Below, in pieces: positions 1,323 through 59,465 of a stretch of DNA of 64,000 bases. The notes below the pieces were generated by a model. It was given only the letters and a program-made list of their open reading frames with translations. It did not search any database and was not told the origin of the DNA. Every line of letters begins with the position of its first letter. Within the stretch, counting starts at the first letter, position 1. Source of the DNA: Vulcanisaeta moutnovskia 768-28 (GTDB lineage: Archaea > Thermoproteota > Thermoprotei > Thermoproteales > Thermocladiaceae). The translations under genes and the position numbers were made by a program. The stretch is taken from positions 1,116,001 to 1,180,000 of the forward strand of contig NC_015151.1 of NCBI RefSeq assembly GCF_000190315.1. Direction: 5' to 3'.

Positions 1323-2474
1323 TTAATGAAATATCAATGGCACGTACCTTTTCGTATATGGATATTTACTTAATGCATCCTCATTAATGTTCAACCCAAC
1401 ACCCACACCTCCTAGGTCTGATAGGCGCACCTCCCCGTTCCTAACCCTAACCTCCCTATCATAAATGTCGCCCACCCAAGTCAGCGGCCACTCCACAACC
1501 TCAACACCGTCAATGATTGAGGCGATGTGCAGCGTGTAGGTGTGCGTTAGGATTGACTTATGCGGTCTATGGTGAGGCGCCACTGGCCTACCCATGGCCT
1601 TGATGTCTTTAATCACATCCATAAACCTCAGTATACCACCAACCTTAGAGATGTCAGGCTGCACATACGAAACGCCTGCACCGACTAAACCCTTGAAACC
1701 GCCCATGTAGTACTCATTCTCACCGGCCGCAATGGGTACCGGAGACCTCCTAGAGACAGTACCTAGTTTGTCATAGTCGTTGGGTGGCCAGGTTGGTTCC
1801 TCAACCCAGTAAGGCTCATACCTATGCACCTTGTTTAGGAATTCCAGGGCCTTGTTAGGGTCGTTAAACGCTGCATTTATGTCCAGCGCAACCCTTAGAT
1901 CATAGCCGAAGCTCTCCCTAACGGCCTTAATGGCCTCTAACGAGTCATTGGTATGCTCATGAAGCTTAACCATGGTAAAACCCCTACCCAATGCCCTATC
2001 CACAGCCTTAACCACGTAATCCACCCTACCATACCTCGGGAAACTGGCGTAGACAGGTATTGAGTCCCTAGACCTAGCACCCAATAACTCACTCACGGAC
2101 CTATTCACATGCCTACCCAGTGCATCCCAAAGGGCCATCTCAAAACCGCCAATGGCGCCCGTGATGACACCACAGAGACCCCCAGTGAATAGTAATTTCT
2201 CAAGCCTATCGACAAGCCCAGCAATGTCATCAACACTATTCACCTCAGCGCCAATTACGGCCGGCGTGATGACATCATCGAAAACGCCAATGTACGAATC
2301 CACAACACCACTACCGTAGGTCAACACCTCACCCCAACCAACCACATCCCCTAAGACGACCCTAACGTATAGCTGTACACCCCAGGAATCCCTGAACATG
2401 GTGGGTGGATCATCATCATAAGGTACGGATAATGGTATGGTTTTAACCTCCCTAATCACCGGCATTTTAATCAC
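1323..2474 (-). CDS. Enolase-superfamily (mandelate racemase/muconate lactonizing type) sugar-acid dehydratase or racemase
   Basis: The 383-residue protein has the two-domain plan of the mandelate racemase group: an N-terminal capping domain (about 1-130) and a TIM barrel. Visible active-site candidates are K170-x-H172 at the end of barrel strand 2, metal ligands D198 (ALDIN), E225/E226 (WVEEP) and E252 (AGENE), and histidines 301-302 (APHHRP). Family members abstract the alpha proton of a carboxylate, usually a sugar acid. The GTG start at 2474 overlaps the stop of the UxaA-type gene (GTGA); an ATG at 2465 is the alternative. Operon position and the upstream GntR regulator point to sugar-acid catabolism. 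The exact substrate cannot be read from sequence; a non-sugar acid remains possible. Confidence 0.85.
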   Translation of the reverse strand: MIKMPVIREVKTIPLSVPYDDDPPTMFRDSWGVQLYVRVVLGDVVGWGEVLTYGSGVVDSYIGVFDDVITPAVIGAEVNSVDDIAGLVDRLEKLLFTGGLCGVITGAIGGFEMALWDALGRHVNRSVSELLGARSRDSIPVYASFPRYGRVDYVVKAVDRALGRGFTMVKLHEHTNDSLEAIKAVRESFGYDLRVALDINAAFNDPNKALEFLNKVHRYEPYWVEEPTWPPNDYDKLGTVSRRSPVPIAAGENEYYMGGFKGLVGAGVSYVQPDISKVGGILRFMDVIKDIKAMGRPVAPHHRPHKSILTHTYTLHIASIIDGVEVVEWPLTWVGDIYDREVRVRNGEVRLSDLGGVGVGLNINEDALSKYPYTKRYVPLIFH

Positions 2475-3640
2475 GCACTTATGTAGAGCTTTATTGGCGA
2501 AAACTCATCGTGCTGAAGTACCTCGGCGGCCGTAAGCCTACCATTGATTACCCTGAGAGCGTATTGGAATATCCTCTCCCCAGCCTCCTTAAGACTAGCC
2601 TTCAACTGGAGTAGGTCTGAGACGTCGACATCAATGTGTTCACTCATGGCCTTAACAGTCTTTGGGTTAGCACTAATCTTGATCACTGGTATTATTGGGT
2701 GACCAACAACATTACCCTGCCCAGTGGTGAATAGGTGCATCACAGAGCCCTTGGCAGCAAACAACGTAACTGCCTCGGCAGCGGCTGATGAGGTATTCAC
2801 GAAACATAGCTGGTCCTTACCCCTTGGTAATGGGTCTAGGTAGTCGAGGACGCAGGTTATTGGCTTCGTACCAAGCTTCTGAATATTGCCGAGGGCCTTC
2901 TCCTCAATAGTCGATAAACCGCCCTTAATGTTACCCTCGGTTGGTTGTGAGCCAAGTAGATTAACACCCTGGCTCTCAATGAAGCCTGTGTACTCCCTAT
3001 AGATCCTCCAGAACTTATCCCTCAACGCTGGGTCAGGTATCCTCTCCGCAACAATATCCTCAGCGCCAGTCAACTCGCTTGTCTCTCCAAACATCACGGT
3101 ATTTCCCAAGTCAATGAGCTTATCAACGGCATAACCAGTGGCTGGGTTTGAGGCTAAGCCAGAGGTTGTGTCAGACTCACCACACTTAATACTAAATACG
3201 AAGCCTGACAGATCGACCTCGGTCCTCTGCTGCTCACTGGCCTCCTGAACAAGCTCCTTAGCCTTCCTGGCGGCCATCTCTATGGTCCTCAGGTCGCCAT
3301 TGCCCTCGATTGGATAGACATACACGGGCTTACCGGTCCTTGCAATGCCATCGGCCACCTTATTAGCCCAGTTATCCTCGATACCTATGACAATGGCGCC
3401 ATAGACATTGGGATTAGCACCTGTGCCAGATAGGATATGGAATAGTAGGTCGAGGTCCTTACCAAACTGAAGCCTACCGTATGGGTGCGGTATGGCAACA
3501 ACACCCCTAATCAGCTTGGCAACACCGAGGGCTGCGGTATTCGATAAATCATCAACAGGTATCACAGCGACATAGTTCCTAATGCCCAGGGAGCCATCGG
3601 GCCTAACGTAAGCCTTTACTGTGTACCTCTCCATGATCAT
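2471..3640 (-). CDS. UxaA-family dehydratase, large catalytic subunit (altronate/galactarate dehydratase-like)
   Basis: The 389-residue protein matches the large domain of altronate/galactarate dehydratases and of sulfolactate sulfo-lyase SuyB. It opens with RPDGSLGIRNYVAVIP, and the later KCGESDTTSGLASNPATG segment is the family's conserved cysteine region. These enzymes remove water (or sulfite) from hydroxy acids, using iron in characterised members. The small SAF subunit is encoded just upstream, and the genes overlap in TGATG, a sign of coupled translation. ATG at 3640 is chosen; ATG at 3634 with the GAGGTG upstream as ribosome site is equally good. A frame open to 3664 would extend the N-terminus, but its residues do not fit the family. 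Exact substrate is unknown. Confidence 0.87.
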   Translation of the reverse strand: MIMERYTVKAYVRPDGSLGIRNYVAVIPVDDLSNTAALGVAKLIRGVVAIPHPYGRLQFGKDLDLLFHILSGTGANPNVYGAIVIGIEDNWANKVADGIARTGKPVYVYPIEGNGDLRTIEMAARKAKELVQEASEQQRTEVDLSGFVFSIKCGESDTTSGLASNPATGYAVDKLIDLGNTVMFGETSELTGAEDIVAERIPDPALRDKFWRIYREYTGFIESQGVNLLGSQPTEGNIKGGLSTIEEKALGNIQKLGTKPITCVLDYLDPLPRGKDQLCFVNTSSAAAEAVTLFAAKGSVMHLFTTGQGNVVGHPIIPVIKISANPKTVKAMSEHIDVDVSDLLQLKASLKEAGERIFQYALRVINGRLTAAEVLQHDEFSPIKLYISA

Positions 3641-11613: not shown

Positions 11614-11917
11614 GTTGAGGGTTGTCAATGAGGATGTAATCATCAACAAGCCACTTTGCGGATTTGTCAAGCCTATTAATCAAATGAGGTGACCAAAAAG
11701 CCCAGCGAGATCTTTGAGATTGTGGATAATTGTGTGACCTGGCAATTGGATGTCTTCTTGGTCTCGACTTCATTGCCATCCTTAACGGTTAAGATGGGGG
11801 GTTAGGGAATTGTCCCATTTATTGTGTGTTATTATTGCATATTGTGTAAATAGTCATGATCAATGCCGAATATTTTGAATATAAAGTCTTTAATTAAAAA
11901 TATGTTTGGAGGAAATG

Positions 11918-11928
11918 CTTTAAAAATA
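11918..11928 (+). promoter_or_regulatory. TATA box of the APC permease gene
   Basis: CTTTAAAAATA is centred 27 nt upstream of the ATG at 11950. It lies inside the longer open frame that begins at 11863, which argues that translation starts at 11950. Confidence 0.6.
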
Positions 11929-11949
11929 GAATATATAGTCCCGAGAACG

Positions 11950-13341
11950 ATGGGTAAGGAGTCTAGTTATGGGTTAAAACGCGGTGTTGTAACTTTTTGG
12001 GAGCTTGTTTTTCAATCACTAAGTTTTACAGCACCTGGGATAGCGGCTTTAGCCACGTTAAGCGGTGCTGTGGCCTTCGCCTACGGGTCAGCGCCACTTT
12101 CGGTTATTCTTGCAGCACTGGGTGTGGCGTCGGCGGCGTATGCAGTCTATGAATTCTCCCTTAAGGTTGCATCCAGCGGTGGTTACTACAGGTATATCGA
12201 GAGGGGGTTTGGACCCAGGGTCGGTGCGTGGAGTGGGTGGTTGTACATACTGTATGCAGGTGTTGCCGCAACACCCTTTATTTACCTAGAGACTGCCTTG
12301 GCCGTCCAATACGGATTATCCGAACTAGGTATCAACCTCCCGAGCTGGTCCTGGTACCCATTAGGCATAGCCGATGCACTACTCGCCCTGGTGCTACCTT
12401 ACCTAGGCATTAAACCCTCAGTTAAGTACATGCTCTGGACAGGCATGATTGAGATAGCAGCCCTAATGCTTGGTGGTGCAATCATAATCGCATTATCCCC
12501 CAAGCCCTGGGACCCACTCGTATTCACACCGGCATATGCACCAGGCGGTTGGTCTGGGGTTGGTATGGGCCTTATCTTCGCCTTCACGGCCTTCGCAGGT
12601 TGGGGCTCAATGACATTCCTAGGCGCAGAGGCTAAGGAGGCTCACGTAAACATTAGGAGGGGCGTAATTGCCGTTGTTTTGCTATTATCCGTATTCTTCA
12701 TATTCATGATGTACGCACTAATAATTGGCTGGGGACCCAGTAACGCATCTACCTACTTCCAATACTTCATACCTGGTATAACCGAAGCCGTTAAGTACGG
12801 CTTATTACCCATAGCCATCCTCTGGATGATTCTAGTGACGAATAGCGGCTTCACGGATACTATGGCAATACTAAATGCCGTGGCCAGGGACATGTACACA
12901 ATGGCCAAGGACAGCGCCCTACCCCAATGGCTCTCAATAACACATCCCAGGTACAAGACGCCGCACAGGGCATTGATACTCGATACAGTAATCGGCCTAG
13001 CACTATTTACAGCACTTGGCTGGACCCTAGGACCACTAAACGCATTCCTAATAACCGGGCTTTGGGGCGGTATTGCAACCTCCATCGAGCACCTCCTAAT
13101 AAACATCGCACTACCGCTGTACTCCAGAAAGAGGGACTTCTTCAAGTGGACCCACGTGGCGGTACCCACAATAGCCTCAGTACTGTACCTCTTCGTCCTA
13201 TACGCAACCGCCATAACAACTGCAATAAGCCTACCGGTCATCGTGGCAGTAACATTTTTAGTGGCTTGGTTCATAATAACTGGGGTAATATCCTGGAAAA
13301 AACCAGTGGTTCCAAGGCTTGAGGAGGGTGAGGAGTTGTGA
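11950..13341 (+). CDS. APC-family amino acid (or amide) permease
   Basis: The 463-residue integral membrane protein opens with GLKRGVVTFWELVFQSLSFT, then APGIAALATL, the TM1 region of APC transporters. It has the KVASSGGYYRYIERGFGPRVG loop and about 12 hydrophobic segments. The start at 11950 is set by the TATA box upstream; 29 extra residues from 11863 would be untranslated. The stop overlaps the GTG of the acetamidase gene (GTGA), so the permease and amidase are translated together. The simplest reading is uptake of a short amide or amino-acid amide that the amidase hydrolyses; an ordinary amino acid is also possible. Confidence 0.87.
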   Translation: MGKESSYGLKRGVVTFWELVFQSLSFTAPGIAALATLSGAVAFAYGSAPLSVILAALGVASAAYAVYEFSLKVASSGGYYRYIERGFGPRVGAWSGWLYILYAGVAATPFIYLETALAVQYGLSELGINLPSWSWYPLGIADALLALVLPYLGIKPSVKYMLWTGMIEIAALMLGGAIIIALSPKPWDPLVFTPAYAPGGWSGVGMGLIFAFTAFAGWGSMTFLGAEAKEAHVNIRRGVIAVVLLLSVFFIFMMYALIIGWGPSNASTYFQYFIPGITEAVKYGLLPIAILWMILVTNSGFTDTMAILNAVARDMYTMAKDSALPQWLSITHPRYKTPHRALILDTVIGLALFTALGWTLGPLNAFLITGLWGGIATSIEHLLINIALPLYSRKRDFFKWTHVAVPTIASVLYLFVLYATAITTAISLPVIVAVTFLVAWFIITGVISWKKPVVPRLEEGEEL

Positions 13342-14273
13342 TAACGATTGACGGGACTAGGGAGGAAAACCTACACTACAGGTGGAGCCCAAACCTAAGG
13401 CCCATAGCCAGTGTCAGGGATGGTGATGAGGTCACCGTAATCATACCAGACTCATCAACAATGCAAATAAGGCCAGGAATGACCGCAGAGGACCTGGCAA
13501 AACTCGACTCATCAAAATTCGACGCCGCAGTCGGGCCCATCTACGTCGAGGGTGCTGAACCTGGTGATGCGTTGGCTGTTGACATACTCGATATTGAGGT
13601 CGGTGATTGGGGGTGGTCAGCAATACTTGGCTTCATAGGGCTTCTCAAGGGCAGGTTTAGGGACCTACTCATTCACTGGAGGATTAGCAATGGTTACGCA
13701 GAGACAACAGGCGACTTCCTCAGGGGTATTAGGATACCGGTTAGGCCTTTCCTTGGTGTTATTGGTGTTGCGCCTAGGGAGGGTGAGTTCGAGATGATAC
13801 CGCCGCAGTACTTCGGTGGTAACATGGACAATAAACTTCACGGAGTCGGAGCCAGGGTCTACCTACCAGTCAATGTCAGGGGTGCCTTATTATCGCTGGC
13901 TGATCCACATGCTAGTCAGGGTGATGGTGAGGTGACTGGAACAGCAATAGAAACAAACGCAACAGTTAGGATCAGGGTCAACGTGATTAAGGGCCTGGGC
14001 ATAAGGAGGCCATTTACAGTGGCCTCAATCAAGGACGAACCAACCAACGTCATCGCGACCATGGGCATATCCAGCGATTTATACCAGGCGGCCAGGGATG
14101 CCCTTGAGGACATGCTAACGATACTGAATAAGCTCTATGGGTTAACACCCGAGGAGGGTTACGTACTAAGTAGTGTGATTGGTAACCTTAGGATCTCGGA
14201 AATAGTTGACGAACCAAACTACGTAGTAACACTAACAATACCAAGAAGCATAATAGAAAGGATAAGGCAATGA
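13338..14273 (+). CDS. Acetamidase/formamidase family amidase
   Basis: The 311-residue protein belongs to the FmdA/AmdA family. It has the early HYRWSPNLRPIASVRDGDEV, GPIYVEGAEPGDALAVDI, then GVAPREGEFEMIPPQYFGGN, DPHASQGDGEVTGTAIE, and a C-terminal EGYVLSSVIGNLRISEIVD. The family hydrolyses formamide, acetamide or similar amides to the acid and ammonia with metal-bound water. The length is typical for archaeal members. The GTG at 13338 overlaps the permease stop by four bases, a strong sign of one operon. The product ammonia and acid would feed general metabolism. Confidence 0.92.
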   Translation: MITIDGTREENLHYRWSPNLRPIASVRDGDEVTVIIPDSSTMQIRPGMTAEDLAKLDSSKFDAAVGPIYVEGAEPGDALAVDILDIEVGDWGWSAILGFIGLLKGRFRDLLIHWRISNGYAETTGDFLRGIRIPVRPFLGVIGVAPREGEFEMIPPQYFGGNMDNKLHGVGARVYLPVNVRGALLSLADPHASQGDGEVTGTAIETNATVRIRVNVIKGLGIRRPFTVASIKDEPTNVIATMGISSDLYQAARDALEDMLTILNKLYGLTPEEGYVLSSVIGNLRISEIVDEPNYVVTLTIPRSIIERIRQ

Positions 14274-14285
14274 AAGATTTACCTA

Positions 14286-15026
14286 GTGAGTTGTTTAATT
14301 ATTTTATTGCGATTTTTTGATGTTAGGCAGGGGAAAGCAACGCCTGAGGAGTTGACTGGGTCCACATTCACAATAAGTAACCTGGGAATGACAGAGGTCA
14401 TTTACTTCACACCAATAATAAACCCGCCGGAGGTCGCGATACTCGGTGTTGGGAAGATTAGGGATACCAATGGGAGAAAACTCCTACCGCTAAGCCTAAC
14501 CCTTGATCACAGGGTGATTGATGGCTACGTGGGCGCTCAATTCCTGGGTAGGCTCAAGGAGTTGATTGAGAAGCCCCAGGGAGTACTGCCTGGACTACCG
14601 TCTCCGCCTGAGGTTTCCTATACCCTAAGCGCGGTTTCACTGTCAGATACTAGGATTGAGGCTACCATAAGGAACTTCAGGGTAATGGTTGATGAGACAG
14701 AGGATGCGGGAGGTACAAACACAGCGCCAAACCCAATAGAATACTTACTACTTGCCCTAGCTGGGTGCATGAATGTAACCATTAGGAAGATAGCCAGGGA
14801 GATAGGTGTTAAGATAGACTCAATGCAATTAACAGTGACCGGTTCACTAAACCCAGCCAGGTTTGAGGGTCTCACAAAGACTGGGAGGGCTGGCTTGACT
14901 CATGTAAGTATTGAACTGAGTATATCAACAACAGCACCAAGGGATGCAATAAACGATATAATTAAGGAGGCCGAGGAAAGATGCCCAGTGCACGACACAT
15001 TAACTCAAGGAACACAAATTGTTTAA
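14286..15026 (+). CDS. Fusion: truncated 2-oxoacid dehydrogenase E2 acyltransferase + OsmC domain
   Basis: Residues about 12-95 are the C-terminal part of an E2 catalytic domain: GKATPEELTGSTFTISNLGM, INPPEVAILGVGKI, and the active-site LTLDHRVIDGYVGAQFL (HRxxDG type). The lipoyl domain, E3-binding domain and first half of the acyltransferase fold are absent. Residues about 105-246 are an OsmC/Ohr-like domain (NPIEYLLLALAGCMNVTIRK with one cysteine; ERCPVHDTLTQG with the second), a thiol peroxidase fold. The junction is in frame. The start is uncertain: GTG 14286 is used here. An ATG at 14270 overlaps the amidase stop (ATGA) but reaches a stop after a run of six T; one fewer T would join the frames. 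It may be a chimera formed by deletion or a working fusion. Confidence 0.8.
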   Translation: MSCLIILLRFFDVRQGKATPEELTGSTFTISNLGMTEVIYFTPIINPPEVAILGVGKIRDTNGRKLLPLSLTLDHRVIDGYVGAQFLGRLKELIEKPQGVLPGLPSPPEVSYTLSAVSLSDTRIEATIRNFRVMVDETEDAGGTNTAPNPIEYLLLALAGCMNVTIRKIAREIGVKIDSMQLTVTGSLNPARFEGLTKTGRAGLTHVSIELSISTTAPRDAINDIIKEAEERCPVHDTLTQGTQIV

Positions 15027-15077
15027 GTCTTAGTAAGGTGTCGTAAATCACGTTTAAGAGATGCATTAGGTAAACTT

Positions 15078-15098
15078 TCTGTTTCTTTTTAATTATTC
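15078..15098 (+). terminator. T-rich stretch after the E2-OsmC gene
   Basis: TTTCTGTTTCTTTTTAATT follows the stop by about 55 nt and lies before the promoter of the next gene. Pyrimidine/T-rich tracts commonly end archaeal transcripts; there is no hairpin. Confidence 0.3.
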
Positions 15099-15144
15099 TC
15101 ATGTAGTATGTTTTAAATGGGCCTTAAATTATGTTTGCCATGGT

Positions 15145-16350
15145 ATGGACCTTATCGATAAGCGAAGTACTAGGTGGGTATTGACCCTATTGCCGTATAG
15201 TGTCGCCATTGGTCCTCTGGGTACCCTGATTACTCTCGAGATAGCATCGTTTAGAGGTAGCCCCGTGGATGTTGGTTACGCCATGGCTGCGGGCTCTGCT
15301 GCCGGTATCATTGCGCCATTACTGTGGGGTTTCCTGCTTGACAGGTATGGTAATAAGGAGGTGCTTGTCCTGGGTTTTCTCGGCACAGCCCTATTCATCC
15401 TAGCTCTTACCTATGCGCCTAATATTCCACAAATAGCCCTTTACTACGCCGCATCATCACTATTCTCCTCCGCCGTTGGTGTTTCCACAAGTTTCATCCT
15501 TATTAAGTCCTCGAGCAAGTATAAATTGAATGAGTCATATTCCTTACTTAACTTCATTAGTTCGCTGGGTTACCTAGTTGGTGATGTTTCGGCTGCCGTA
15601 TTATCAAGCTTTATGGGCATTAAGTCCATATTGCTCATCATGGGCTTATTACCTGTTATCTCTTTTGCTTGGTCATTAATTTCTGTACCGCGGGTCAGCA
15701 ATGGTGAAAGACAGATAGTAAGTAGGCGAGTATTTAGGGAGCGTATTCGTAATGTTAATCTGGGCGAGTTAATTACTCTTTACTTGGCGCTTGTTATTTT
15801 CTATTTATCATCAGGAATATTCAACACGCTTTACCCATACGGACTAAGGGTTGGTGGTTTATCGAGACCTTGGGTAATGACCATAATTTCCGTAGGCATG
15901 GGAGTTCAGATTATCGGTTATATGATTACCCCACGCATGATACACCTACTCGGTGGTAATGCAAGAGCATCATCGCACTCATCAATACTAAGGGGATTAT
16001 CATACTTCCTAATTGGATTAACTGCATCAACTCCGGAGACCATGATCATTACAGGATTAACACTATACCCACTAGCCGCAGGTATCGCCTACCCAACATT
16101 CTACACCGCATCAAGTGTTATGATCTTCGAGAAACTCGATAATGGCGAGGAGGGTAAGGGTCTTGGTGCCTATAGCTTCATTACTGGTTCGGCGTATCTA
16201 ATAGGGTCATTAGCGTCTGGGTATTTAGCAGATTTCATCGGGATTGGTGGGAGTTACATGGTGGCTGGTGCAATGCTTTGGGTATCATCATACCTATTCA
16301 AGCAAATCCACAGGAGCGAGATTACTAAGAGCGCGGTTAATCAGTCTTAG
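15145..16350 (+). CDS. MFS transporter
   Basis: The 401-residue protein has about 12 hydrophobic segments, a LLWGFLLDRYGNKEVL loop equivalent to the MFS A-motif after TM2, and a second-half ASGYLADFIGIGGSYM. It is shorter and more diverged than the two metabolite:H+ symporters nearby, and is closer to the small-molecule exporter/nucleoside-type MFS group. Nothing in the sequence fixes the substrate. ATG at 15145 is preferred, with a TTAAAT-type box about 30 nt upstream. It precedes the AOR gene by 90 nt but has no obvious functional tie. Confidence 0.78.
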   Translation: MDLIDKRSTRWVLTLLPYSVAIGPLGTLITLEIASFRGSPVDVGYAMAAGSAAGIIAPLLWGFLLDRYGNKEVLVLGFLGTALFILALTYAPNIPQIALYYAASSLFSSAVGVSTSFILIKSSSKYKLNESYSLLNFISSLGYLVGDVSAAVLSSFMGIKSILLIMGLLPVISFAWSLISVPRVSNGERQIVSRRVFRERIRNVNLGELITLYLALVIFYLSSGIFNTLYPYGLRVGGLSRPWVMTIISVGMGVQIIGYMITPRMIHLLGGNARASSHSSILRGLSYFLIGLTASTPETMIITGLTLYPLAAGIAYPTFYTASSVMIFEKLDNGEEGKGLGAYSFITGSAYLIGSLASGYLADFIGIGGSYMVAGAMLWVSSYLFKQIHRSEITKSAVNQS

Positions 16351-16407
16351 TCATACCCAATACCCATAAACCATAACCATGCGTTTTTATTACCTAATCT
16401 ACTGGGT

Positions 16408-16417
16408 TTAACTTTAA
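16408..16417 (+). promoter_or_regulatory. TATA box of the first AOR gene
   Basis: ACTTTAAAGG is centred about 28 nt upstream of the GTG at 16441, supporting a leaderless mRNA with a GTG start. Confidence 0.55.
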
Positions 16418-16440
16418 AGGAGATGTGATTATTTCTTGTT

Positions 16441-18351
16441 GTGGTCATAAAGGGTGTTAATGGGATTATAGGCTTTGTTAATCTCTCAACAGGAGAGGTT
16501 AGGAAGATTCAGGTACCTGATGATGTGTATAGGGATTTCCTTGGTGGTTATGGGCTTGGTACCTGGTTCCTATACACCCACATGAAGCCTAGGGTAGACC
16601 CACTAGGTCCTGACAACATACTGGGCATAATATCTGGCCTACTAAATGCGAGTGGTATTCCAATGACCGGTAGGTCTATGGCAGTTGGTAAGTCACCATT
16701 AACGGGTGGTTGGGGTGATTCTAACGCCGGTGGTAGGTTCGGCCCTAAGTTATTGGAGGCGGGTTTAGACGCTGTATTCGTTACTGGCACCTCTGAGAAA
16801 CCCGTCTACATATTAATTGAGAATGGCAATATACACATTGAGAATGCAACAGACCTTTGGGGTAAGACGACCAGGGAGACCGAGGATGAATTAAGGCGTA
16901 GATACAGGGGTGCTCAAGTGGTTAGTATTGGACCACCTGGTGAGAGACTTCAGTTAATTGCGGCTATTATTAATGAGTATGGTAGGGCCTATGGCAGGTC
17001 TGGACTCGCTGCTGTAATGGGTAGTAAGAAGTTGAAGGCTATAGTTGCTGTTGGTGATAAGAAACCCGTGATACATGATAGAGATTTACTTAGGCAGAAG
17101 ATCAAGGAGTTGCTTGATGTGTTGAGGACGACTAGGGCCAAGGCCTACGAGATTTGGCATAAGTATGGAACAATATCCACATTGGACACGAGTGTGTTGT
17201 CCGGCGATACACCAATTAAGAATTGGGCTGGTATTGGTGTTAGGGATTACGGGACAAAGAACCTTGAGAGGTTTGGGACGAACACGGTGATTCAGGATAA
17301 TGTTAAACCCTATGGCTGCGCAAGCTGCCCAGTATCCTGTGGTGCATGGATAAGGAGAAGCACTAGGTATGGCTTGGTTGAGGGACACAGACTTGAGTAC
17401 GAGACAGCCTCGCTCTTTGGACCAGCCCTATTAAATGCTGACCAGGACTCAGTGGTTTATGTCGGTGAACTCTGCAACATGTATGGATTAGACACAATAT
17501 CGACGGCAAATGTTGTGGGTTTCACCTTCGAACTATACGAGAAGGGAATACTCACCGAGAAGGATGTTGGCTTTCCACTAAGGTGGGGTGATCCTGACTC
17601 AGTGGTTAAGCTCGTGGAATTAATAGCCAAGGCTGAGGGAATCGGTAAGATACTTGGCCAAGGTGTTAAGAGGGCTGCTGAGATAATTGGTAAGGGCGCC
17701 GAGCAGTATGCAATGCATGTTGGAGGTCAGGAATTACCATCACATCACCCACAGTTCTTACCTGGACTGGCCATCACATACACCGCAGATCCAACGCCAG
17801 CTAGGCACACGGCTGGTGGTGTTCATTGGTGGGGTGAGGGCGGCAAGAGGCTTTGGGCGCCATTCGACATTGGCATGGACCTAGGCGCATCACCTAAGTA
17901 TGACTATAGTGATAAGGGTCGTAAGGCAGCCATAATAGCCATGTCCACACAGGTCGAGAACTCATTAGGCTTCTGTCAATTCGCATCTCAAGTAATCTAT
18001 AGGACCCTGCCATACATAGACCTGATATATGCCGTAACCGGCATGAGGTACACACCGCAGGAGCTTCTTAAGGTCGGCCATAGAATACACACACTTAGGC
18101 AATTATTCAATGTTAGGGAAGGAGTAAATCCAAAGAAGGACTTTAAGTTACCCAAGAGGGTTCTCGAACCATTCCCGGAGGGACCGCTGGCTGGTGTTAA
18201 GTTGACTGAGGAGGATGTGGAGAGGATGAGAGAGCAGTACTGGGAGACACTCGGTTGGGATCCAAGCACTGGCTACCCGAGGAGAAAGACTGTTGAGGAG
18301 CTTGGGCTTGCTGGGATAGCTGGCGACATCATTAGTATTCTACCTCCATGA
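16441..18351 (+). CDS. Aldehyde:ferredoxin oxidoreductase (tungsten/molybdenum pterin, AOR family) 1
   Basis: The 636-residue protein has the three AOR domains. The N-terminal pterin-binding domain begins GVNGIIGFVNLSTGEVRKI with GGYGLGTWF. The [4Fe-4S] cysteines are C293, C296 and C300 (YGCASCPVSCGAW), with C512 (ENSLGFCQF) as the fourth. Such enzymes oxidise aldehydes to acids using water and reduce ferredoxin in the cytoplasm, with tungstopterin in hyperthermophiles. The fourth-cysteine motif ENSLGFC departs from the usual DxxGLC/DSLVLC form, and the loop AGGVHWWGEG is unusual, so the substrate may differ from that of the second AOR. Transcription starts at its own promoter. A CoA-transferase and a SelB-like gene follow. 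Confidence 0.93.
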   Translation: MVIKGVNGIIGFVNLSTGEVRKIQVPDDVYRDFLGGYGLGTWFLYTHMKPRVDPLGPDNILGIISGLLNASGIPMTGRSMAVGKSPLTGGWGDSNAGGRFGPKLLEAGLDAVFVTGTSEKPVYILIENGNIHIENATDLWGKTTRETEDELRRRYRGAQVVSIGPPGERLQLIAAIINEYGRAYGRSGLAAVMGSKKLKAIVAVGDKKPVIHDRDLLRQKIKELLDVLRTTRAKAYEIWHKYGTISTLDTSVLSGDTPIKNWAGIGVRDYGTKNLERFGTNTVIQDNVKPYGCASCPVSCGAWIRRSTRYGLVEGHRLEYETASLFGPALLNADQDSVVYVGELCNMYGLDTISTANVVGFTFELYEKGILTEKDVGFPLRWGDPDSVVKLVELIAKAEGIGKILGQGVKRAAEIIGKGAEQYAMHVGGQELPSHHPQFLPGLAITYTADPTPARHTAGGVHWWGEGGKRLWAPFDIGMDLGASPKYDYSDKGRKAAIIAMSTQVENSLGFCQFASQVIYRTLPYIDLIYAVTGMRYTPQELLKVGHRIHTLRQLFNVREGVNPKKDFKLPKRVLEPFPEGPLAGVKLTEEDVERMREQYWETLGWDPSTGYPRRKTVEELGLAGIAGDIISILPP

Positions 18352-21070: not shown

Positions 21071-21172
21071 GCGGGGGTGCCCGAGCCTGGTCAAAGGGGG
21101 CGGACTTAAGATCAAAAATAAGATATCCGCTGGCGAAGGCCTGCGTGGGTTCGAATCCCACCCCCCGCACCA
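21071..21172 (+). tRNA. tRNA-Leu (anticodon UAA) with a 14-nt intron and encoded CCA
   Basis: The acceptor stem GCGGGGG (21071-21077) pairs with CCCCCGC (21162-21168). The discriminator A at 21169 and CCA at 21170-21172 are encoded. The T arm is GTGGG-TTCGAAT-CCCAC, and a GGC/GCC long variable arm marks a class II tRNA. The anticodon stem GCGGA/TCCGC encloses loop CTTAAGA with anticodon TAA at 21107-21109. A 14-nt insert (ATCAAAAATAAGAT, 21111-21124) falls at the canonical 37/38 intron site and must be removed by the archaeal splicing endonuclease. The intron edges can be shifted by a base or two because of repeats. Confidence 0.95.
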
Positions 21173-58217: not shown

Positions 58218-59465
58218 ATGTCAGTTTCAGCACTTGAATCTAAACGTCTTGATGCAGTGCTTAAGGGAGATGAGGAGGTAGAGGTTGTTGGTACTGGCAC
58301 TGATGCGGTGGCCTACGCACTAATGCTTGCTGATATTGATGTAACATCGGCATACCCAATAAGGCCTTACGGCGGTGTCATGCAGACGGTGGCTAGGTTA
58401 ATAGCTGATGGTTATATGAAGGCCGAGTACATAGTGGCTGCCCATGAACATGACCAGTTCGAGATCGTTAAGCACGCATCTGCCGTTGGCGCAAGGACTT
58501 TTGTTGGCAGTAGTGGTGTTGGTTGGTTACTGGCTATTGAGGCCATAGTGGCCATTAGCACGGATAGGTACCCAGTGGTCGCATTAATAGGTAATAGGGC
58601 GCTTGATGATCCAGGAGCATATGGTGTAGAGCATAATGATGCATTGATGGTTAGGGACGTAGGCTGGTTATTGACATGGGTTGACACCGCCCAGGAGGCT
58701 CTGGACACCACATTAATAGCCTATAGGGTTGCTGAGGATCCAAGTGTCATGCTTCCAGTGGGTATATCAATGGATGGCGCATTCCTAACGCATAGCGAGC
58801 ATGCATTTAAGATACCGCCTAAGTCTAAGGTCCAGAAGTTCCTACCACCCTACGATTTGGGCAACAGGAAGTTACACCCAAGCAACGTGATCAGTGTGGC
58901 ACCACAGGTCAATGAGGACTGGGTTACAGAGCTTAGGAAGCAGATGGATGAGGCCATGAAGAATGCGAGGAAGGTTATTGAGGAGGCCTATAGGGACTTC
59001 GCGAAGATCTTCGGTAGGGATTATGGTAACCCATTTATTGAGACTTATATGGTTGAGGATGCCGACGTGGTCATGGTTGGTATGGGCACTGTTTCTAAAC
59101 CAATTAAGGAGGCTGTGAGGAGATTGAGGGCCAAGGGTGAGAAGGTTGGCTTTCTCAGGATTAGGTGGTTTAGACCATTCCCAACCGAGGACATCATACG
59201 TTACCTGAGTGGTGTTAAGGTTGTGGCTGTTGTGGATAGGGATTACTCATTTGGTTCGCCTTTTGATGGTGGTGCAGTATTTACTGAAATAAGGAGTGCG
59301 TTGTATGAGGCGGAGCATAGGCCATTAATGATGAATTTCATTGGTGGACTTGGCGGTAGGGAGATTACCTATAATGATGCGATTAATATGTTCAATATGG
59401 CTTTGAATGCAGCTAGAAAAGGTAAGGTTGAGCAGAGGGTGATTTGGTATGGGGTTAGAGAGTAA
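58218..59465 (+). CDS. porA: Pyruvate:ferredoxin oxidoreductase alpha subunit
   Basis: The 415-residue protein shows the PorA pattern: GTDAVAYALMLADIDVTSAYPIRP (pyrimidine-binding start; split here as two parts), then EYIVAAHEHDQFEIVKHASA, GARTFVGSSGVGWLLAIEAI, and the C-terminal EKVGFLRIRWFRPFPTEDII with AVVDRDYSFGSPFDGGAVF. It binds TDP with the beta subunit and holds the substrate. GAGGAGG lies just before the ATG, a good ribosome site for an internal operon gene 6 nt after the gamma-delta stop. A related 2-oxoacid (2-oxoisovalerate) is possible. Confidence 0.93.
   Translation: MSVSALESKRLDAVLKGDEEVEVVGTGTDAVAYALMLADIDVTSAYPIRPYGGVMQTVARLIADGYMKAEYIVAAHEHDQFEIVKHASAVGARTFVGSSGVGWLLAIEAIVAISTDRYPVVALIGNRALDDPGAYGVEHNDALMVRDVGWLLTWVDTAQEALDTTLIAYRVAEDPSVMLPVGISMDGAFLTHSEHAFKIPPKSKVQKFLPPYDLGNRKLHPSNVISVAPQVNEDWVTELRKQMDEAMKNARKVIEEAYRDFAKIFGRDYGNPFIETYMVEDADVVMVGMGTVSKPIKEAVRRLRAKGEKVGFLRIRWFRPFPTEDIIRYLSGVKVVAVVDRDYSFGSPFDGGAVFTEIRSALYEAEHRPLMMNFIGGLGGREITYNDAINMFNMALNAARKGKVEQRVIWYGVRE

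Follow-up and report, generated by a model that had tools for sequence, protein, structure and literature searches.

A short E2-OsmC gene in Vulcanisaeta moutnovskia as the probable relic of a full-length lipoyl-E2-OsmC fusion

The analysed window is a 64,000-nt stretch of the Vulcanisaeta moutnovskia 768-28 genome (contig NC_015151.1, positions 1,116,001 to 1,180,000), which comprises 2,298,983 bp in a single contig. At the locus under study, genes for an amino-acid permease and an acetamidase/formamidase-family protein are followed by an uninterrupted ORF on the forward strand, running from GTG to TAA and encoding 246 aa (Table 1). The Pfam analysis of the encoded protein revealed a 2-oxoacid_dh domain (PF00198) at residues 13-100 (E 1.5e-31, profile positions 135-230 of 232) and an OsmC domain (PF02566) at residues 143-245 (E 7.3e-22, profile positions 1-97 of 100). 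The latter scored 78.1 bits against a curated cut-off of 27.5, and the isolated OsmC domain scored 96.6 bits with NF041052 (cut-off 95). The in-frame E2-OsmC fusion proposed in the original prediction was therefore confirmed as one open reading frame, together with the retained E2 active-site motif and a complete OsmC domain with both cysteines.

Table 1. Features of the truncated E2-OsmC locus and of a related split locus (window positions unless another locus is given)
Feature	Position	Strand	Remarks
Amino-acid permease	11863..13341	+	PF00324; adjoins the amidase in G010 too
Acetamidase/formamidase-family gene	13338..14273	+	PF03069; tail-to-tail neighbour of the intact fusion in G010
Old intergenic DNA with an antisense copy of the final codons of the ancestral gene	14274..14318		Provides today's start region and the larger part of the T6 run
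Truncated E2-OsmC gene	14286..15026	+	Putative GTG start; 246 aa
Inversion breakpoint 1	14318..14319		BLASTN switch from L050 18081 (reverse) to 17380 (forward)
Remaining C-terminal ~42% of the E2 catalytic domain	14319..14585	+	Residues 12-100; PF00198; G010 homology starts exactly at 14319
DHRVIDG E2 active-site motif	14505..14525	+	Residues 74-80
OsmC domain (Pfam bounds)	14712..15020	+	PF02566, E 7.3e-22; NF041052, 96.6 bits
First (peroxidatic-position) Cys codon	14766..14768	+	Residue 161
Second (resolving-position) Cys codon	14982..14984	+	Residue 233
Breakpoint 2	15019..15020		C-terminal KITIK replaced by V and stop; G010-locus homology ends
Split version of the lipoyl-E2-OsmC system, with AcoX-like genes	L100:7536-11096		G299

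As an E2, the protein possesses the DHRxxDG motif and lacks both a complete catalytic domain and a lipoyl domain with its lysine, in agreement with the expected partial fold. The E2 piece had been described as the last third of the catalytic domain; it amounts to approximately 42%, leaving approximately 58% missing, when the E2 domain of a relative's full-length protein (G010, residues 105-316) is taken as the reference and homology begins at its residue 227. Such a piece is incapable of forming a catalytic E2. In single-sequence AlphaFold prediction, the whole protein had a mean pLDDT of 46, and the E2 part was below 50, values too low to inform on folding. The OsmC half belongs to the OsmC/Ohr superfamily by a domain above the curated cut-off and by two cysteines, Cys161 and Cys233. 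With Glu51 and Cys61 of XfOhr as the reference (numbering of PMC5962072), Ile stands where Ohr has its catalytic Glu, 10 residues ahead of the first Cys, and a Glu follows one residue later. The OsmC domains of both the window protein and G010 fall in the NF041052 group, for whose members no demonstration of peroxidase activity was found in the literature searched. Because of this membership and the Ile substitution, the peroxidase activity of OsmC is only putative here.

The same domain order was found at full length in two genomes of the same genus, G010 (465 aa, L002 826-2223) and G011 (L003, complement of 1483-3099), with 88% and 85% identity, respectively, to the window protein over residues 11-245. 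The full-length architecture comprises a lipoyl domain (residues 4-76), an Ala/Pro linker, an E2 catalytic domain (105-316; complete in G010, PF00198 profile positions 3-231), and an OsmC domain (358-462). All four related lipoyl domains compared, those of G010 and G011 included, share the presumed lipoyl-lysine (K43 in the G010-type fusion). Separate full-length E2 and OsmC genes in close relatives would have spoken against the fusion; this was not the arrangement found, since the two closest E2-bearing relatives carry the full-length fusion. Among 398 Thermoproteota genomes, one-ORF E2-OsmC matches were restricted to the window genome, G010, and G011, and the remaining matches listed were E2 or OsmC as separate genes. 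Judged from sequence comparison, the fusion is older than the window genome and was present in an ancestor within the genus. No E2-OsmC fusion was described in the open-access text of the literature searched.

In both relatives, the fusion gene adjoins a lipoate-protein ligase gene (PF21948), two AcoX-like genes of the NAD-kinase fold, and E1 genes both as separate alpha and beta units and as an alpha-beta fusion, and it is the sole PF00198 match and the sole PF00364 match in each genome. The E3-binding domain (PF02817) was absent from the full-length G010 fusion and was detected in a control E2, that of G014, with an E of 1.5e-16. Neither locus has an adjacent E3, and no E3 above the curated cut-off was found in G010 or G011; at canonical E2 genes elsewhere in the order, an E3 above the cut-off adjoins the E2. 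Both genomes contain FAD disulfide reductases that bear a CxxxxC motif, are unlinked to the fusion locus, and could serve as E3. One type of these has the HxHPTxxE motif and is shared with the window genome, in which no E1 was detected.

The window locus was then compared with the G010 locus (L050) by BLASTN. Window positions 13396-14317 corresponded to L050 19000-18081 in reverse orientation, covering the amidase, intergenic DNA, and the antisense of the end of the fusion gene, and positions 14319-15019 corresponded to L050 17380-18080 in forward orientation. A 701-bp segment is thus inverted relative to the amidase; one breakpoint cuts the E2 coding sequence, and the other falls immediately ahead of the ancestral C-terminus. 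The 45 bases that follow the amidase match, in reverse complement, the G010 sequence downstream of its amidase, and none of 1000 shuffles aligned as well. Because of this alignment, the residues before D12 are assigned to intergenic and antisense DNA, and the putative start codon accordingly comes from accidental DNA. Beyond 15019 there is no further homology to the loci of G010 and G011; the flank at 15027-18351 was thus joined by rearrangement or deletion. From the mapped breakpoints, we infer that an inversion plus a large deletion left only the 3' tail of the gene. The flank downstream of the relic encodes an MFS transporter and an aldehyde ferredoxin oxidoreductase. Further along, Rfam detected a tRNA of 99 nt at 21071-21169(+) (46.2 bits), perhaps intron-bearing, which was missed by ARAGORN.

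The breakpoint also bears on the proposal that a sequencing error in a T6 run conceals a longer E2 frame starting from the ATG at 14270. A T6 run does lie at 14314-14319 and an ATG just past the amidase; however, the run sits on the inversion breakpoint, and upstream of 14319 the DNA matches, in reverse complement, the relative's gene end and the intergenic DNA beside it instead of E2 codons. The upstream ORF (MKDLPS...) consists of this intergenic and antisense DNA, and therefore no frameshift is hidden; the frame of the supposed amidase-coupled ATG (MKDLPSELFNYFIAIF followed by a stop) terminates immediately and encodes no E2. No further E2 (PF00198) sequence was found elsewhere in the window genome. 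The frameshift was rejected on these grounds, and the chance of such an error is negligible.

Partner genes were sought in the window genome, and no match was obtained for the biotinyl/lipoyl domain (PF00364), lipoate ligase (PF21948), or E1 (PF00676); the window protein is for that reason regarded as having no lipoyl partner. Within the 64-kb window, the E2 5' half, LplA, and AcoX were not found, apart from a weak 29% local match at 59055. The suggested link through lipoyl chemistry is thus plausible, and strongly suggested, for the relatives' full-length fusion, but not for a genome in which none of these genes was detected. Substitutions on the window branch numbered 12 synonymous to 3 nonsynonymous in the E2 part (departure from neutral, P = 8e-6) and, for the linker plus OsmC, 34 to 15 (P = 6e-11); these ratios are similar to those of branches leading to intact genes, and most changes may predate the truncation. 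Given purifying selection on this branch, the remnant is either recent or kept, and if kept, it was probably retained for its OsmC half.

Taken together, the window gene is a relic and not a newly invented enzyme, and the finding of value is the intact fusion of the relatives. It is probably the 5'-truncated remainder of a lipoyl-E2-OsmC fusion whose intact version functions as the sole E2, with an OsmC domain likely reduced by the lipoyl arm. That the truncated protein itself works as a bifunctional enzyme coupled to lipoyl chemistry is highly improbable: DHRVIDG and both OsmC cysteines are retained and the E2 part is conserved in sequence, but 58% of the catalytic domain is missing and PF00364, PF21948, and PF00676 are unmatched in the genome. 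A decaying pseudogene devoid of remaining function is a more serious alternative, although still an unlikely one. Decay would fit the losses (the lipoyl domain, the larger part of the E2 domain, and five C-terminal residues), the accidental start codon, and the undetected partner genes. Against it, the ORF is open across 246 codons, the OsmC domain is complete with both cysteines, and few amino-acid changes have accumulated on the window branch, though a very recent truncation would look alike. According to the relic reading, the last ~700 bp were inverted beside the amidase and everything 5' is absent from the locus, and the remnant, if expressed, would most likely be a thiol protein of the OsmC type that carries an inert extension at its N-terminus and uses another reductant.

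For the relatives, it is possible, if doubtful, that OsmC was fused as a passenger to secure co-expression and exchanges no electrons with the lipoyl arm. The fusion is confined to one genus among the 398 genomes, other archaea that encode OsmC and E2 separately mostly do not place the two genes together, and the catalytic Glu is absent; on the other hand, two species have kept a complete E2 and OsmC without an E3-binding domain or an adjacent E3, and an independent gene pairing exists in a distant archaeon, G299. There, an OsmC gene precedes by 6 bp an E2 gene that encodes only the catalytic domain, and the pair is divergent from a stand-alone lipoyl gene and from an E1 gene with 71% identity to the E1 fusion of G010. 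This association looks independent because the OsmC of G299 is of another, remote subtype and scores 23.9 bits with NF041052. The pairing beside the same kind of E1 supports a lipoyl-OsmC coupling. No second OsmC-E2 pair was found in the order of G299 among the matches listed. The G299 genome has an E3 elsewhere; therefore, replacement of E3 is not general.

In a wider scan with the lipoyl domain as the marker, two archaeal MAGs showed E1-lipoyl-AcoX modules that lack OsmC, and the remaining matches were ordinary alphaproteobacterial loci. Modules of an E1 fusion, a stand-alone lipoyl gene, and AcoX-like genes were observed in Fervidicoccus-like archaea (L099:5066-8403, L108:2-2735, and L109:3-2619), with no E2 or OsmC adjoining them. 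On a Haladaptatus halobius plasmid (L143:7239-9059), an E2 gene is followed about 16 codons on, in the same frame, by an OsmC gene without its N-terminal part, and the locus adjoins E3 and a fused E1. This is a weak lead to a possible independent E2-OsmC linkage in decay; the related haloarchaeal OsmC genes inspected stand alone.

The intact fusion is probably the only E2 of a 2-oxoacid (or acetoin) dehydrogenase of the E1/E2 type, and the lipoate ligase encoded beside it probably makes it lipoylatable. In the most straightforward interpretation, turnover of E1/E2 would reduce the swinging lipoyl arm, and the arm would in turn reduce the OsmC disulfide of the same protein; direct electron transfer from dihydrolipoyl-E2 to OsmC may thus take place in the relatives, as the domain arrangement suggests. 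The OsmC domain would probably pass the electrons to (hydro)peroxides, replacing or acting alongside E3/NAD. A bolder and only tentative proposal is an E3-free 2-oxoacid dehydrogenase core with its own terminal oxidant in Vulcanisaeta-type archaea, in which the fused OsmC would reoxidise the lipoyl arm by peroxide with the net reaction 2-oxoacid + CoA + ROOH -> acyl-CoA + CO2 + ROH + H2O and without NAD. Equally speculative is the part of this proposal in which the window gene would be a fossil of that peroxide-driven enzyme.

A natural E2-OsmC fusion as the only E2 of a genome constitutes genetic evidence for Ohr/OsmC-lipoyl-E2 coupling in archaea, and it brings the idea of a dehydrogenase driven by peroxide and independent of NAD within reach of direct testing. 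The window copy illustrates how the loss of a locus can leave a chimeric-looking orphan, which annotation would take for a new fusion.

Among known systems, the relatives' fusion resembles the archaeal 2-oxoacid dehydrogenase E2 (e.g., at the G014 locus) in its lipoyl domain, linker, and catalytic domain with DHRxxDG, and in the E1 genes and lipoylation gene nearby. It differs in having a C-terminal OsmC and no E3-binding domain or adjacent E3, and the window copy retains just ~42% of the catalytic domain. The OsmC of Trichomonas is said, in work by Nyvltova in 2016, to be driven by an incomplete glycine decarboxylase complex. OsmC is likewise tied there to a lipoyl system for peroxide detoxification, but through separate proteins and a different lipoyl carrier. 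Lipoylated E2 systems are reported to be the main route by which Ohr is regenerated (PMC4486171), and OsmC is reported to be regenerated by them as well (PMC8945050). With these lipoyl-dependent thiol peroxidases (Cussiol 2010, cited in PMC10332631; PMC4486171), the fusion shares the OsmC fold family and two conserved cysteines, whereas it belongs to the NF041052 group and not to Ohr or OsmC proper, has Ile in place of the Glu ten residues before the peroxidatic Cys, and is fused to its presumed electron donor.
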